Made by a program: the position numbers and the translations under genes
The notes under the pieces: model-generated
Databases searched by the model: none
What the model was told of the DNA's origin: nothing
The model's input: only the letters and a program-made list of their open reading frames with translations
Source: Hymenobacter edaphi
GTDB lineage: Bacteria; Bacteroidota; Bacteroidia; Cytophagales; Hymenobacteraceae
Direction: 5' to 3'
Length of the DNA stretch: 64,000 nt
Assembly: GCF_003258365.1 (NCBI RefSeq)
Contig: NZ_QHKM01000001.1
Span: 124,001 to 188,000 of the forward strand
In this document: positions 900-42,246 of the stretch, piece after piece
How the letters are laid out: every line of letters starts with the position of its first letter
How positions within the stretch are numbered: position 1 is the first letter of the stretch

Positions 900-1001
900 G
901 GTGAGTTGGTGAGATAGTGAAATAGTGAGTTTTACGTTCAAAAAGCTGACGCTGCGCAGTCAGAACGACACTCGCCATTTCACCACCTCACCACCTCACC
1001 G
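900..1001 (+). repeat. Intercistronic inverted-repeat element, copy a
   Basis: The left arm is built of GGTGAGNT-like units (900-930) and the right arm of CTCACC/TTTCACC units (970-1000). The arms pair imperfectly: 18 of 22 positions in the core, more if G-U pairs count. The loop differs from the other copies and lacks their AACATCAAACTCACC tail. It starts three bases after the stop codon of the sugar transferase. See the other copies at 2977, 4205, 21920 and 42123. Confidence 0.7.
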
Positions 1002-2975: not shown

Positions 2976-2976
2976 C

Positions 2977-3085
2977 GGTGAACTGGTGAGATGGTGAATT
3001 GGTGAGTGTCGTTTTGCCTGCGCACCATGCGCGGTTCGCGCCTCCCAAACATCAAACTCACCATCTCACCATTCCACTATCTCAC
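2977..3085 (+). repeat. Intercistronic inverted-repeat element, copy b
   Basis: Begins one base after the TAG stop of the cytidylyltransferase and ends 15 bases before the next ATG. The left arm is made of GGTGAACT / GGTGAGAT / GGTGAATT units. The right arm is CTCACCATCTCACCATTCCAC, pairing with the left at about 23 of 30 positions. The loop carries the 15-mer AACATCAAACTCACC at 3048-3062, shared exactly with copies at 4276 and 42204. Confidence 0.8.
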
Positions 3086-3100
3086 TTCTTTCTCCACCAC

Positions 3101-4201
3101 ATGAAACGCATCCTGATTACCGGCAACATGGGCTATGTGGGGCCGGGCGTTGTGCGGCGTCTGCGCCAGGCCTTCCCCGGCGCCGAGCTGATCGGTTACG
3201 ACCTGGGCTTCTTTGCCCACTGCCTCACCGGGGCCGACTGCCTGCCCGAAATCCGTCTGGACCGCCAAGTGTTCGGCGACGTGCGCCACCTGCCGCTCGA
3301 TCTGCTTTCGGGCGTCGACGTGGTGGTGAACCTGGCGGCCATCAGCAACGACCCGATGAGCCACGCCTTCGAGGACGTGACGCTGGCCGTAAACCACCGC
3401 GCCGGCATTGAGCTGGCCCGGCGGGCCAAAACGGCGGGCGTGCGCAGCTTCGTGTTTGCCTCCTCGTGCAGCATGTACGGCGCCGGCGCCGACGCCCCGC
3501 GCACCGAATCGGCCGTGCTGAACCCGCTCACGGCCTACGCCCGCAGCAAGGTGCTCAGCGAGCAGGACCTGGCCCCGCTGGCCGACGAGCAGTTCCGCGT
3601 GACCTGCCTGCGCTTTGCCACGGCCTGCGGCTGGAGCGAGCGGCTGCGGCTGGATCTGGTCGTCAACGACTTCGTGGCCGGGGCCGTGGCTACGGGCCAC
3701 ATCAACATCCTCAGCGACGGCACGCCCTGGCGCCCGCTCATCCACGTGCAGGACATGGCCCGCGCCATCGAATGGGCCGTGGAGCGGCCGGCGGCCAACG
3801 GCGGGGCCTTTCTGGCCGTGAACGTGGGCTCCGACAGCTGGAACTACCAGGTGCACGAGCTGGCCGCCGCCGTGGCCGCCGGCGTGCCCGGCACCGAGGT
3901 GACGCTCAACCACGAAGCCCCGCCCGACAAACGCTCGTACCGCGTCGATTTCAGCCTGTTTCGCCGCCTGGCCCCTTTCCACCAGCCCCAGCGCACCCTG
4001 GCCGATACCATCACCGAGCTGCGCGAACAGCTGCTGGACATGGGTTTCCACGACGCCGAGTTCCGGGCCTCCCAGCTTATGCGCCTGCGGGTGCTGACGG
4101 CCCTGCGCGAGGCCGGCCGCCTCAACGACCAGCTGGAGTGGCAGCGCAGCACCGCCGTGGTGCGCCCGCTCGTCACCGCCGACCCGGAGCTCGTGGCCTA
4201 A
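3101..4201 (+). CDS. NAD-dependent epimerase/dehydratase (extended SDR)
   Basis: Short-chain dehydrogenase acting on a nucleotide sugar, probably the CDP-sugar made by the gene before it. The 366-residue protein has the Rossmann motif ITGNMGYVGPGVV (residues 5-17), NLAAISNDP, the serine region FASSCSMYG and the catalytic YARSK pair (YxxxK). It also carries RLDLVVNDFVAGAV and the SDGTPWRPLIHVQDMARAI block common in SDRs of methylated-deoxysugar clusters. ATG 3101 is chosen because MKRILITG is the usual start; the upstream open frame is only the repeat element. The reaction (4,6-dehydration, epimerisation or 4-reduction) is not resolved. Confidence 0.88.
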   Translation: MKRILITGNMGYVGPGVVRRLRQAFPGAELIGYDLGFFAHCLTGADCLPEIRLDRQVFGDVRHLPLDLLSGVDVVVNLAAISNDPMSHAFEDVTLAVNHRAGIELARRAKTAGVRSFVFASSCSMYGAGADAPRTESAVLNPLTAYARSKVLSEQDLAPLADEQFRVTCLRFATACGWSERLRLDLVVNDFVAGAVATGHINILSDGTPWRPLIHVQDMARAIEWAVERPAANGGAFLAVNVGSDSWNYQVHELAAAVAAGVPGTEVTLNHEAPPDKRSYRVDFSLFRRLAPFHQPQRTLADTITELREQLLDMGFHDAEFRASQLMRLRVLTALREAGRLNDQLEWQRSTAVVRPLVTADPELVA

Positions 4202-4204
4202 AGC

Positions 4205-4314
4205 GGCGAACTGGTGAGATAGTGAAATGGTGAGTGCCCTTCTGCCTGCGCCACCCGCGAGGTCCGCGCCACCACAACATCAAACTCACCATCTCACCAT
4301 TTCACTATCTCACC
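4205..4314 (+). repeat. Intercistronic inverted-repeat element, copy c (best-paired copy)
   Basis: Positions 4213-4234 and 4293-4314 form a perfect 22-bp inverted repeat of GGTGAG-type units, so the RNA between the two cistrons should fold into one long hairpin. The 15-mer AACATCAAACTCACC is at 4276-4290. It starts three bases after the preceding stop and ends 12 bases before the next ATG (4327). Confidence 0.85.
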
Positions 4315-20946: not shown

Positions 20947-21909
20947 TCAGGCTGCCAGCATCGGCGCGGCTTGCGGGGCCAGCAGGCGGCGCCACTCGGC
21001 GTCGGCAATGGTGCGGGCCAGCCCCTCGCGCAGGCTGATCTGGTGGTGCCAGCCCAGGCCGTGCAGGCGGCTCACGTCGAGCAGCTTGCGCATGGTGCCG
21101 TCGGGCTTGCTGCTGTCGAACACGACCTCGCCGCGGAAGCCCGTCAGCTCGGCCAGCAGGCCCGACAGCTCGCGGATGGTCAAATCTTCGCCGGTGCCCA
21201 CGTTCACCGGCTCGCGGCCGTCGTAGTGCAGCATCAGGTGCAGGCAGGCGTCGGCCAGATCGTCCACGTGCAAGAACTCGCGGCAGGGCGCGCCGGTGCC
21301 CCACACGGTCACCTCGGGCAGGTTCAGGTCGGCCGCTTCGCTGAATTTGCGCAGCAGCGCCGCCATCACGTGCGAGTTCTGCAGGTCGTAGTTGTCGTGC
21401 GGGCCGTAGAGGTTGGTGGGCATCACCGTGATGAAGTTGCAGCCGTGCTGGTCGCGGTAGGCCTCGCACATCTTCAGGCCGGCAATCTTGGATATGGCGT
21501 AGGGCTCGTTGGTGGGCTCCAGCTGCCCGGTCAGCAGGTACTCCTCGCGGATGGGCTGCGGGGCCAGCTTGGGGTAGATGCACGACGAGCCCAGGTACAG
21601 CAGCTTTTTCACCCCGTGGCGGTAGGCTTGGTCGAGCACGTTGCCCTCAATCATGAGGTTGTCGTACAGAAAGTCGGCGCGGTAGGTGTTGTTGGCGTAG
21701 ATGCCGCCCACCTTGGCGGCGGCCAGCATCACGTACTCGGGCTGCTCCTCGGTGAAGAAAGCGGCCACGGCGGCCTGGTCGCGCAGGTCCAGTTCCTTGG
21801 ACGTGCGGGTGATGATGTTGGTGTAGCCGGCGCGGCGCAGGCGCCGCACGAAAGCCGAGCCCACCATGCCACGGTGGCCCGCCACGTAGATTTTGGCGTT
21901 CAGGTCCAT
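20947..21909 (-). CDS. fcl: GDP-L-fucose synthase
   Basis: Bifunctional epimerase-reductase that turns GDP-4-keto-6-deoxy-D-mannose into GDP-L-fucose with NADPH. The 320-residue protein has the family landmarks: [18 protein letters not shown] near residue 6, [27 protein letters not shown] near 108 and the catalytic YAISKIAG (YxxxK). It also has [38 protein letters not shown] and [13 protein letters not shown]. The start is at ATG 21909; the open frame upstream is repeat copy d. It directly follows gmd and feeds the fucosyltransferase at 28507. Confidence 0.95.
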
Positions 21910-21919
21910 GTTGAGAAAA

Positions 21920-22036
21920 GGTGAAGGGGTGAAATTGTGAGTGGTGAACTGGTGAGTTGATGTTTGAGCGACGCGGAGCTGCGCACCATGCGCAGCCAGT
22001 GCGGCACTCACGATTTCACCAGCTCACCACTTCACA
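21920..22036 (-). repeat. Intercistronic inverted-repeat element, copy d (minus orientation)
   Basis: Fills the gap between gmd and fcl. On the plus strand the left arm is GGTGAAGG / GGTGAAATTGTGAG and the right arm CACTCACGATTTCACCAGCTCACC. Read on the minus strand, the loop ends in AAACATCAACTCACC (21951-21965), a near match to the 15-mer of copies b, c and e. Orientation therefore follows transcription here too. Confidence 0.75.
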
Positions 22037-22037
22037 G

Positions 22038-23150
22038 CTATTCATAGTAATTGAGCACGCGGTGGCCGGCTTCGAGCAGCACGGCGTCGCGGCGGAACAC
22101 TTCCAGGTCGGCCTGCATCATGTCCTGCACCAGCGCGGGCAGGTCGTAGCGGGGCGTCCAGCCCAGCTTCTGCTGCGCCTTGGTCGGGTCGCCGATGAGC
22201 AGCTCCACCTCGGTGGGGCGGTAGTAGGTGGGGTCCACGGCCACCACTTCCTTGCCCAGCGGCAGCTGGTAGTCGGGGTGGTGGCAGGCCACCACGTGGC
22301 CGGTTTCGTCGGCGCCCTCGCCGAAGAAGGTTAGCTCCACGCCCAGCTCGGCAAAGGCCATGCGCACGAAGTCGCGCACGGTGGTCGTCACGCCGGTGGC
22401 AATGACGAAGTCCTCGGGCGTGTCCTGCTGCAGAATGCGCCACATGGCTTCCACGTAATCTTTGGCGTGGCCCCAGTCGCGGCGCGCGTCCAGGTTACCC
22501 AGGTAGATTTTGTCCTGCAGCCCCAGCCCGATGCGGCTCACCCCGCGGGTGATTTTGCGGGTCACGAAGGTTTCGCCGCGCAGCGGGCTTTCGTGGTTGA
22601 ACAGGATGCCGTTGCAGGCGTACATGCCGTAGGCCTCGCGGTAGTTCACCGTAATCCAGAAGCCGTAGAGCTTGGCCACGGCGTAGGGCGAGCGAGGGTA
22701 AAACGGCGTCGTCTCGCGCTGCGGCACTTCCTGCACCAGCCCGTACAGCTCCGAGGTCGAAGCCTGGTAGATGCGCGTCTTGCGCGTCAGGCCCAGAATA
22801 CGCACGGCCTCCAGCAGCCGCAGCGTGCCGATGCCGTCGACGTCGGCCACGTACTCGGGCGTGTCGAAGGACACCTTCACGTGCGACATGGCGCCGAGGT
22901 TGTAAATCTCGTCGGGCTGCACCTCCTGAATGATGCGGATCAGGTTTGTCGAGTCCGTCAGGTCGCCGTAGTGCAGCTTGAAGCGCACTTCCGCTTCGTG
23001 CGGGTCCTGGTAGAGGTGGTCGATGCGGTCGGTGTTGAACAGCGAGGAGCGGCGCTTGATGCCGTGAACCTCGTAGCCTTTGCTGAGGAGCAATTCAGCC
23101 AGATAAGCTCCGTCCTGGCCGGTAATGCCGGTAATGAGGGCACGCTTCAT
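22038..23150 (-). CDS. gmd: GDP-mannose 4,6-dehydratase
   Basis: Makes GDP-4-keto-6-deoxy-D-mannose, first step of GDP-fucose synthesis. The 370-residue protein shows [19 protein letters not shown] at the N-terminus, [53 protein letters not shown] with the catalytic Thr/Ser region, [15 protein letters not shown] (YxxxK), [17 protein letters not shown] and [18 protein letters not shown]. All are diagnostic for Gmd. ATG 23150 is the family start; the open frame before it is unrelated. It is followed by fcl across repeat copy d. The AT-rich gap upstream is a likely promoter region. Confidence 0.96.
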
Positions 23151-29747: not shown

Positions 29748-30587
29748 TCAGTGCAGGAAGTAGCCCCCGAGGCGGCGCACGTAGCCGTTGAGCAGGAAGG
29801 AGGGAAGCAGCAGCGGCGGGCAGTTTTTCAGGGCAAAATGCGTGAAATTGACCAGGTTGCCGCCGCCGCGGATGCCGAACAGGTGCTGGTAGTAGCCGCG
29901 CAGGCTGCGCTGCCTGCGGGTTTGTTCCTGCCCGCTTTCCTCGGGGTAGGTGAGCAGGTGCGCGTCGTAGTTCAGGTACACCGGGAAGCCGTGGCGGCGG
30001 GCCACGCTGGTGTAGTCGTAGTCGGCCAGGTAGTGGGGCAGGCGCTTCTCGTCGAAGAGGCCGATGGCGGCCACCACCTGCGCCGGAATGAGCAGGCCGC
30101 GGCCCGGCAGGTAGGTGACGGGGTGCAGGCCGCGTCGCTGGGGCGGGGTGAGCTTGCTCAGCAAATCCTCGCTGCGGTGGGTGAGCCAGCTGAACTGCTC
30201 GCCGCCGTACACCGGCTGGCCCGAGTGCACGTCGAGTTCTAGGGCGCCGAGCAGGGCGTCAGGGTAGCGCTCGGCCCAGTGCAGCATGCGGGCCACGAAG
30301 TCGGGCGCGGCCACCACGTCGTTGTTCATGGTCATCAGGCGGTCGGCGCCTTCGGCCAGGGCGCGGCGCAGCCCGGCGTTGACGCCGGCCGTCCAGAACA
30401 GCTGCCCGGTGCCGGGCACCACGATTACCTCGGAGTACTCGCGGGCCAGCACTTCGGCGGTGCCGTCGGTGGAGCCGTCGTCGACGACCACCGTGCGGAA
30501 CTGCTGGGTGGTCTGACGGCGCAGGGCGTCGAGGCAGGCCCGGGTGTACGCCAGGCGGTTGAACACCGGAATGACGATATAGAGCAT
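29748..30587 (-). CDS. Family 2 glycosyltransferase
   Basis: 279-residue GT-A enzyme. It starts directly with LYIVIPVFNRLAYTRACLDAL, then FRTVVVDDGSTDGTAEV, PGTGQLFWTAGVNAGLR and the metal-binding DxD-like MTMNNDVVAAPDF. YLADYDYTSVARRHGF lies in the acceptor half. It resembles rhamnosyltransferase-type GT2 proteins. It is followed by the repeat-filled gap and the fucosyltransferase and preceded by a GT4 gene 45 bp upstream. Donor and linkage are unknown. Confidence 0.86.
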   Translation of the reverse strand: MLYIVIPVFNRLAYTRACLDALRRQTTQQFRTVVVDDGSTDGTAEVLAREYSEVIVVPGTGQLFWTAGVNAGLRRALAEGADRLMTMNNDVVAAPDFVARMLHWAERYPDALLGALELDVHSGQPVYGGEQFSWLTHRSEDLLSKLTPPQRRGLHPVTYLPGRGLLIPAQVVAAIGLFDEKRLPHYLADYDYTSVARRHGFPVYLNYDAHLLTYPEESGQEQTRRQRSLRGYYQHLFGIRGGGNLVNFTHFALKNCPPLLLPSFLLNGYVRRLGGYFLH

Positions 30588-30632
30588 CGGTGAGATGGTG
30601 AAGTGGAGAACTGGAGAGGGACGGAAGGCGCG

Positions 30633-42122: not shown

Positions 42123-42241
42123 GGTGAAATGGTGAACTGGTGAGTGCCGTTCTGCTTGCGTAAGCCGCGTGGTCTGCGCCAGCTGCGCAGGACTGACCTC
42201 TCCAACATCAAACTCACCACCTCACCACCTCACCATCTCAC
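42123..42241 (+). repeat. Intercistronic inverted-repeat element, copy e
   Basis: It begins right after the TAA of the response regulator and ends 5 bp before the kinase ATG. Left arm GGTGAAATGGTGAACTGGTGAG; right arm CTCACCACCTCACCACCTCACC. The 15-mer AACATCAAACTCACC is at 42204-42218, and the loop text resembles copies b and c (TTCTGCTTGCG, GGTCTGCGCC). Confidence 0.8.
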
Positions 42242-42246
42242 TGCTC

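Follow-up and report, generated by a model that had tools for sequence, protein, structure and literature searches.

GGTGA elements, a dispersed family of stop-to-start palindromes with octamer-array arms in Hymenobacter edaphi

When a 64-kb stretch (G000:C11:124001-188000; the window) of the 6.04-Mb genome of Hymenobacter edaphi (the host) was analyzed, with the sister species G002 serving for comparison, five palindromic elements between genes were assigned to a dispersed family, here termed GGTGA. These five copies are probably non-coding DNA of the REP/MITE-like kind, in which the arms are two-sided stop arrays, the spacers are promoterless and turnover proceeds by replacement. The GGTGA family is a new form of intergenic REP/MITE-like palindrome, and it is one of many palindrome families that fill spacers from stop to start. 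The exchangeable-spacer setting is the surprising part: in such gaps other palindrome families replace one another, a finding beyond what the window sequence of the preliminary description could show. Genes were called by our own script and not taken from the annotation, about one fifth of the host genome was read, and the slot test covers one species pair; the results are bounded accordingly.

GGTGA elements in the window and in the genus

The features of the window are as follows.

900 to 1000, minus strand (by its core): GGTGA copy a, 2 bp past the stop of a sugar transferase gene (ends 897)
900 to 931, plus strand: left octamer arm of copy a, an example arm
2977 to 3086, plus strand: GGTGA copy b, filling the gap from a nucleotidyl transferase gene (ends 2975) to an epimerase gene (starts 3101)
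2977 to 3008, plus strand: left octamer arm of copy b
3055 to 3086, minus strand: right octamer arm of copy b
4205 to 4314, plus strand: GGTGA copy c, preceded by the epimerase gene (ends 4201) and followed by a dTDP-4-dehydrorhamnose 3,5-epimerase gene (starts 4327)
21920 to 22036, minus strand: GGTGA copy d, between the minus-strand genes 22038-23150 and 20947-21909
30589 to 30612, plus strand: arm-only sixth copy, GGTGAGAT GGTGAAGT GGAGAACT, 1 bp from the start of the minus-strand gene 29748-30587
42123 to 42242, plus strand: GGTGA copy e, preceded by a response regulator gene (ends 42122) and followed by a histidine kinase gene (starts 42247)

The five full elements had been listed in the preliminary description and were recovered to within one base; the arm-only copy at 30589-30612 was absent from that list. 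The reported nearness to gene ends was confirmed with our own gene calls: with the upstream gene setting the reading direction, each of the five copies begins 0-3 bp past a stop codon, and four of them (b-e) end 4-14 bp short of the next start, copy a lying 124 bp from it. The perfect 22-bp stem described for copy c is present, and AACATCAAACTCACC is, as had been noted, identical in copies b, c and e and almost so in d. The sequence GGTGANNTGGTGANNT, allowing up to two mismatches, was matched 37 times in the window (2.63 expected). By Pfam, the flanking genes encode a sugar transferase and a WecG-type glycosyltransferase (copy a), a nucleotidyl transferase, an epimerase and a dTDP-sugar epimerase (copies b and c), two sugar-nucleotide epimerase/dehydratases (copy d), and a response regulator and a histidine kinase (copy e). 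An Rfam search of the window gave no match at the gathering score. Intrinsic terminators were also considered; the stems of copies a-e are of mixed composition and no run of five T was seen past the right arm.

A GGTGA element is typically about 110 bp long. Its asymmetric core, which measures about 45-65 bp in the majority of copies, is flanked by inward-facing arrays of the octamer GGTGANNT. From 1.2 Mb of host and 0.8 Mb of G002 sequence, 38 of the 56 arrays found were kept because they had both arms and at least 70 bp; these copies measure 76-196 bp, the 70-bp minimum being set by the filter. Fifteen of the 38 were picked for the covariance alignment because their core could be oriented. 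When oriented alike they align well, mostly with two to five octamers per side, and have the inner ends GAGTGTCGTTCTG (left) and GAACATCAAACTCACC (right). Terminal inverted repeats are present in that the octamer arms and the inner core ends face each other. The relatives of copy b show 71-85 % identity over most of its length, the closest being the neighbouring copy c, and one 46-bp piece matches at 87 %. Very long octamer arrays, with more than 10 tandem units in one arm, were observed at G000:C11:1076412-1076607 and 1506284-1506376, so arm length varies widely.

The three-unit pattern GGTGANNTNGTGANNTNGTGA was matched 234 times in the host genome (overlaps in long arrays counted), with no match for the reversed control. 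In eight genomes of the genus the matches numbered 234, 0, 228, 0, 2, 54, 52 and 4, the reversed control giving 15 for G006 (52 matches). The pattern is patchy in the taxonomic family, where 35 of 120 genomes were matched with counts from 0 to 369; the positive genomes of this sample belong to the host's genus, to genus g2 (perhaps other Hymenobacter) and, with a single match, to one genome elsewhere. A genome-wide covariance-model search, proposed in the preliminary description, likewise revealed a dispersed family. With 150 candidates scored per genome and each strand counted apart, so that the figures are matches and not copy numbers, there were at least 148 in the host, at least 146 in G002, 82 in G005, 88 in G006, 4 each in G004 and G007, and 0 in G001 and G003. 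A replication-strand polarity of the family was rejected: the apparent signal was an artefact of forward matches being listed first, as became evident when G163 was taken by itself.

Gene ends, stop arrays and RNA pairing

The 38 GGTGA palindromes are found in codirectional (29), convergent (5) and divergent gaps (2) and inside called genes (2), against a background in which divergent gaps make up 208 of the 1095 gaps of 60-450 bp. Placement at gene 3' ends, in codirectional or convergent gaps, thus applies to 34 of the 38. A mobile repeat tolerated only between genes had been one of the two readings offered at the outset; the dispersed family, its recognisable core and its gaps agree better with this reading. 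Of the 39 stop codons that face an element, 38 fall between -21 and +8 bp; 17 of the 39 are inside the arm, and two more overlap the arm by 1-2 nt (together 19).

When the arms of 18 codirectional spacers were read inward over 45 nt, all three frames were closed in 97 % of cases, compared with 20 % for shuffled arms and 0 % for arms read outward. Almost all units contain TGA and their length of 8 is not divisible by 3, which makes the arms stop arrays from both sides. For the GGTGA family this gives a simple reason for the unit length, the inward arms and the siting on stop codons. With three-frame stops in both directions, a copy landing at or in a gene 3' end would be harmless, translation ending cleanly from either side, and copies would for this reason abut or supply stop codons. 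The elements probably spread as mobile DNA, their position reflecting tolerance rather than function. The two of 38 copies in divergent gaps speak against this account, as do the other families: closure is weaker in other tandem families (44 % vs 23 % shuffled; 36 of 50 "other" palindromes kept by a period-7/8 criterion) and is lacking in CGTC-like families (4 % vs 9 % shuffled).

Ten arrays of the host stretches were classed as one-armed by pattern, some of them having a weaker second arm; nine of the ten are at most 8 bp away from a start codon. This position would suit tandem units bound as operators by a protein that recognizes RNA or DNA, a role proposed for the TAACTGA repeats, which in the available part of their description are likewise found a few nt before start codons and close all three frames (PMC4679880). 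We regard binding sites as highly improbable, since many unit sequences occupy and swap at the same positions and the same arms are found between convergent genes.

The other reading offered at the outset was an element acting at the RNA level. Hairpins selected in polycistronic mRNA could bring stop and start together for re-initiation, or serve processing or stability. Consistent with this, stems in codirectional gaps mostly begin no more than about 25 bp from either gene end (outer 70 bp searched), and orthologous slots stay palindromic while their sequence changes. Three of five pair-count measures on the 15 aligned copies also exceeded their shuffled values (2, 1 and 2 of 500 shuffles, the other two giving 388 and 197 of 500); for example, cells changed on both sides numbered 12 vs 6.4 (1 of 500). 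If pairing in the transcript were under selection, however, sense-strand G.U should exceed A.C, and the two were equal (105 vs 106) in 68 codirectional palindromic spacers that are non-REP-like by our own motif labels, convergent and divergent gaps having been dropped. By group, the counts were 18 vs 21 in GGTGA spacers and 87 vs 85 in other non-REP-like spacers, while 27 REP-like spacers gave 34 vs 52. Left arms matched their own right arms no better than those of other copies, either in the host (18.6 vs 17.9, p 0.12, n 25) or in G002 (21.5 vs 20.8, p 0.24, n 13). The RNAalifold covariation term was unfavourable (+0.47), and the covariation score of 0.109, above the 0.081 of shuffles (2 of 500), was exceeded when one strand was slid by +3 columns (0.119). 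The covariation results were mixed, and arm covariation was rejected as proof of RNA structure.

Gap class and orientation bear on the same question. Palindromes occur in convergent gaps too. In the window, the cores of copies b-e lie along transcription and that of copy a is opposed, but this rule does not extend beyond the window. In the 29 codirectional copies of the two genomes (2.0 Mb), 10 cores lie along transcription, 7 against it and 12 are unclassifiable. This comes close to the random orientation that had been named beforehand as a refuting result. RNA-level selection on the GGTGA elements found no clear support in these tests, and we consider selected hairpins quite unlikely. Between the two readings of the preliminary description, the mobile or tolerated repeat is favoured.

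Palindrome families in orthologous spacers

A motif-free search was also performed, in which the start of each gap of 40-450 bp was compared with the reverse complement of its end; across the analysis, gap tests were confined to lengths of 40-450, 60-450 or 60-300 bp. At a score of at least 12, 94 of 683 host gaps were recovered, whereas mismatched gaps gave an expectation of 3.6. By gap class, 55 of 445 codirectional, 43 of 116 convergent and none of 122 divergent host gaps were palindromic. Thirteen of the 43 convergent gaps were flagged as terminator-like and more appear so by eye; many convergent palindromes are ordinary terminators that the flag missed. In the 41 strong codirectional cases arm autocorrelation was 0.38 at period 7 and 0.36 at period 8 (0.29 and 0.29 in other gaps), and the best period, most commonly 7, 8 or 14, reached at least 0.5 in 16 of them. 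The unit words, recognized by reading, include the 8-letter GGGTADGA, GAGTTNNT, GAATGTGN and GATTGCTN and the 7-letter GGAGNTA, GTTGTCA, GAATTAA and GAATTCT; the list also includes ordinary terminators, as well as palindromes that resemble CGTC and GTAG REPs. GTTCTG was tried as a core common to all families and rejected as too weak (9 of 50 vs 29 of 483). Of 149 genomes from the class, 7 contain the heptamer array GTTGTCAGTTGTCAGTTG.

Small scans of other genomes gave codirectional palindromic gaps in G001 (2 of 16), G003 (2 of 16), G004 (1 of 10), G005 (4 of 22), G006 (1 of 11), G007 (0 of 16) and G130 (0 of 6), some of which resemble terminators or CGTC-like repeats. In the E. coli K-12 control none of 15 codirectional gaps in 100 kb, a small sample, was palindromic.

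For comparison with G002, orthologous gaps were matched by their 200-bp gene flanks. This mapped 325 of 700 host gaps to 0.8 Mb of G002, of which 296 were kept (mean flank identity at least 85 %, both gaps at least 40 bp, G002 gap at most 600 bp). The 191 codirectional gaps were palindromic in both species in 27 cases (5.9 expected under independence), in the host alone in 5, in G002 alone in 8 and in neither in 151. Median identity was 0.63 for double-palindrome gaps, 0.80 for palindrome-free gaps and 0.40 for unrelated gaps, and mean flank identity was 95.1 around the first and 93.4 around the second. When shared 9-mers were counted in the 174 codirectional gaps of at least 60 bp in both species, 13 double cases shared at least 15 (same family or descent), 12 shared 0-3 and two were intermediate; unrelated gaps shared a median of 0, with a 95th percentile of 3. 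After removal of the 13 same-family cases, 14 gaps were still co-occupied against 2.5 expected (p 1.6e-11); with an expectation stratified by gap length (3.8), the maximum in 20,000 permutations was 10.

Because a bias towards long gaps could inflate the double cases, palindromic gaps were remapped with no minimum length set for the counterpart. For 27 of 32 host gaps the G002 counterpart was palindromic, and one counterpart was shorter than 60 bp (42 bp); of 40 G002 gaps, 29 were palindromic in the host and again one counterpart was shorter than 60 bp (21 bp). Empty counterpart sites are rare in this host/G002 sample, which is not what simple insertion predicts.

Individual slots illustrate the exchange. 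At slot 448330, between flanks of 99.5 % identity, GAGTT units occupy the host gap and AATTAATA units the G002 gap; at slot 282572 GGGTA units in the host correspond to a GGTGA element in G002. A tandem palindrome stands opposite a CGTC-like palindrome at slot 462239 and opposite a GTAG-like one at slot 348401. In this species pair, then, occupants have been replaced by other palindrome families, although the pairs at 700561 and 442001 may be fast-diverged relatives. Some orthologous spacers keep the palindrome and not the sequence, which hints that spacer DNA is exchanged and not merely acquired or deleted.

The gaps of the window copies vary in the same comparison. The orthologues of gap a hold a palindrome of other octamers in G002 and other GGTGA elements at loci L100 and L101. 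Spacer b (window 2976-3100) differs from its G002 counterpart at 1 of 125 bp, as compared by reading, and different units occupy this gap in some other species. Copy c and its counterpart have similar arms and different loops, and identity to the G002 gap is 0.90 for copy d and 0.83 for copy e. When named Hymenobacter records were scanned together with the host and G002, palindromes of several unit families were present in gap a in 13 of 29 cases (5.5 expected), in gap b in 10 of 32 (1.8 expected) and in gap c in 6 of 31 (1.6 expected); the scan of gap a was looser than the others.

Three further observations were made on single gaps. Spacer b, with its one change, is better conserved than the flanking coding ends (94-95 % identical). 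The G002 gap g2_589560 (contig C1) holds a CGTC-like palindrome with both arms altered in concert, which suggests copying between arms; its host orthologue is a 61-bp remnant. At G000:C11:318948-319125 and its G002 orthologue, similar short-unit arms enclose different contents (a terminator and a CGTC-like element), so that palindromes appear to be nested.

Co-occupancy by different families and the scarcity of empty counterparts would also follow if the whole stop-to-start spacer were swapped in one step at a fixed slot, by cruciform breakage, palindrome capture or inter-strain recombination. Of the 15 double pairs with an identity under 0.7, 10 have no base in common on the stop side and 7 have none in common on either side, and segment replacement is, as far as the consulted part of the source goes, common in the small variation of other bacteria (PMC2884548). 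This explanation draws on a single species pair, and the two possibly fast-diverged pairs weaken it. Saturation of a few tolerant spacers would equally yield co-occupancy, and slot replacement and saturation both fit the data. We consider slot-bound replacement unlikely. A broader proposal is offered tentatively, as possible but doubtful: Hymenobacter chromosomes would contain a set of spacer slots that are nearly always or even obligatorily palindromic from stop to start, and many unrelated families, mostly pairs of inward-facing arrays of 7- or 8-mers, would replace one another there in a single step, a genome-wide exchange with shape but not sequence conserved.

The reading as dispersed, tolerated REP/MITE-like DNA has its own difficulties, which concern mobility. 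No target-site duplication was detected, the mean flanking direct repeat being 1.21 vs 1.53 for shuffled partners (n 38). No convincing autonomous parent with the same ends was found in the 1.2 Mb of host and 0.8 Mb of G002 sequence; the search returned one 870-bp facing pair. A recent donor for slot 282572 was also sought: over its whole length the G002 GGTGA element is matched at no more than 80 % in G002 and 79 % in the host, and at E 0.001 the host GGGTA element is matched elsewhere in the host only in its arms, with one 80-bp match of 74 % under looser scoring. Fresh copying from a present-day donor is thus not visible at this slot.

A RAYT-driven REP was considered and rejected, since G005 and G006 hold the family without PF01797 (Y1 transposase, RAYT-type) and G001 and G003 have PF01797 without the family. 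The sole PF01797 match in the host genome is locus L071 (G000:C41:41082-41297), and no GGTGA array was found in the 3.2-kb locus around it.

Should the exchange of spacers hold, intergenic palindromes would act as exchangeable spacers, orthologous gaps retaining the palindrome and losing the sequence. The old question of whether the genome tolerates REP-like repeats as parasites or requires them as spacers would then become testable by following slots across strains.

Comparison with known systems

In full-text literature that covered few subscription papers, no title or abstract among the matches listed dealt with such Hymenobacter elements or with tandem-armed stop-to-start palindromes. Integron attC sites are imperfect palindromes between consecutive genes, close to stop and start, with RYYYAAC/GTTRRRY core sites and an integrase. 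The palindromes reported here lie between chromosomal genes of conserved order.

Porphyromonas gingivalis belongs to the same phylum as the host. Its BrickBuilt MITE is described as having an internal tandem 23-mer and lying 49-591 nt from genes (PMC4596501). The GGTGA element is similarly a small intergenic inverted-repeat element with tandem repeats. Unlike those of BrickBuilt as described there, its tandem units make up the arms and directly adjoin genes, and a target-site duplication or parent was not found in the stretches searched.

REPs tagged GTAG or CGTC are dispersed intergenic palindromes located mainly in codirectional and convergent gaps near gene 3' ends, and the termini of GTAG REPs often provide the stop codon, according to the available sections of Di Nocera 2013 (PMC3733652). 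GGTGA elements resemble the REPs of that account in lying at gene 3' ends and supplying stop codons (PMC3733652), and look-alikes of the GTAG and CGTC tags, by our own motif labels, occur in the same gap class (12 of 95 and 7 of 95). In contrast to REPs, the GGTGA consensus (15 copies) starts with GGTGA and ends with TCACC, with no GTAG or CGTC tag at either end; the element is typically about 110 bp with octamer-array arms and not a unit of 20-40 bp; and the family does not track Y1-transposase genes as RAYT-mobilised REPs would.

"Dimorph" loci are short variable segments that are mostly replaced and not inserted or deleted (Touzain 2010, PMC2884548, consulted in part). Exchange of palindromes between repeat families is not part of their description in that portion of the source (PMC2884548).

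Tandem heptamers were also compared; the host has period-7 palindromic spacers, the GGTGA element itself being built of octamers. Cyanobacterial STRR are tandem heptamer repeats. TAACTGA heptamer repeats, described from Beggiatoaceae, Cyanobacteria and five Bacteroidetes, are often located a few nt upstream of starts and provide stops in every frame, as given in the accessible part of MacGregor 2015 (PMC4679880). The arrays described here share with them the short tandem units, the all-frame stops and the nearness to starts (PMC4679880). The TAACTGA repeats of that text are direct repeats with one indirect set, whereas here opposed units make up both arms of a palindrome as long as the spacer, and 8-mers are common. 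The cyanobacterial and Beggiatoaceae heptamer arrays may be single arms of the same architecture.
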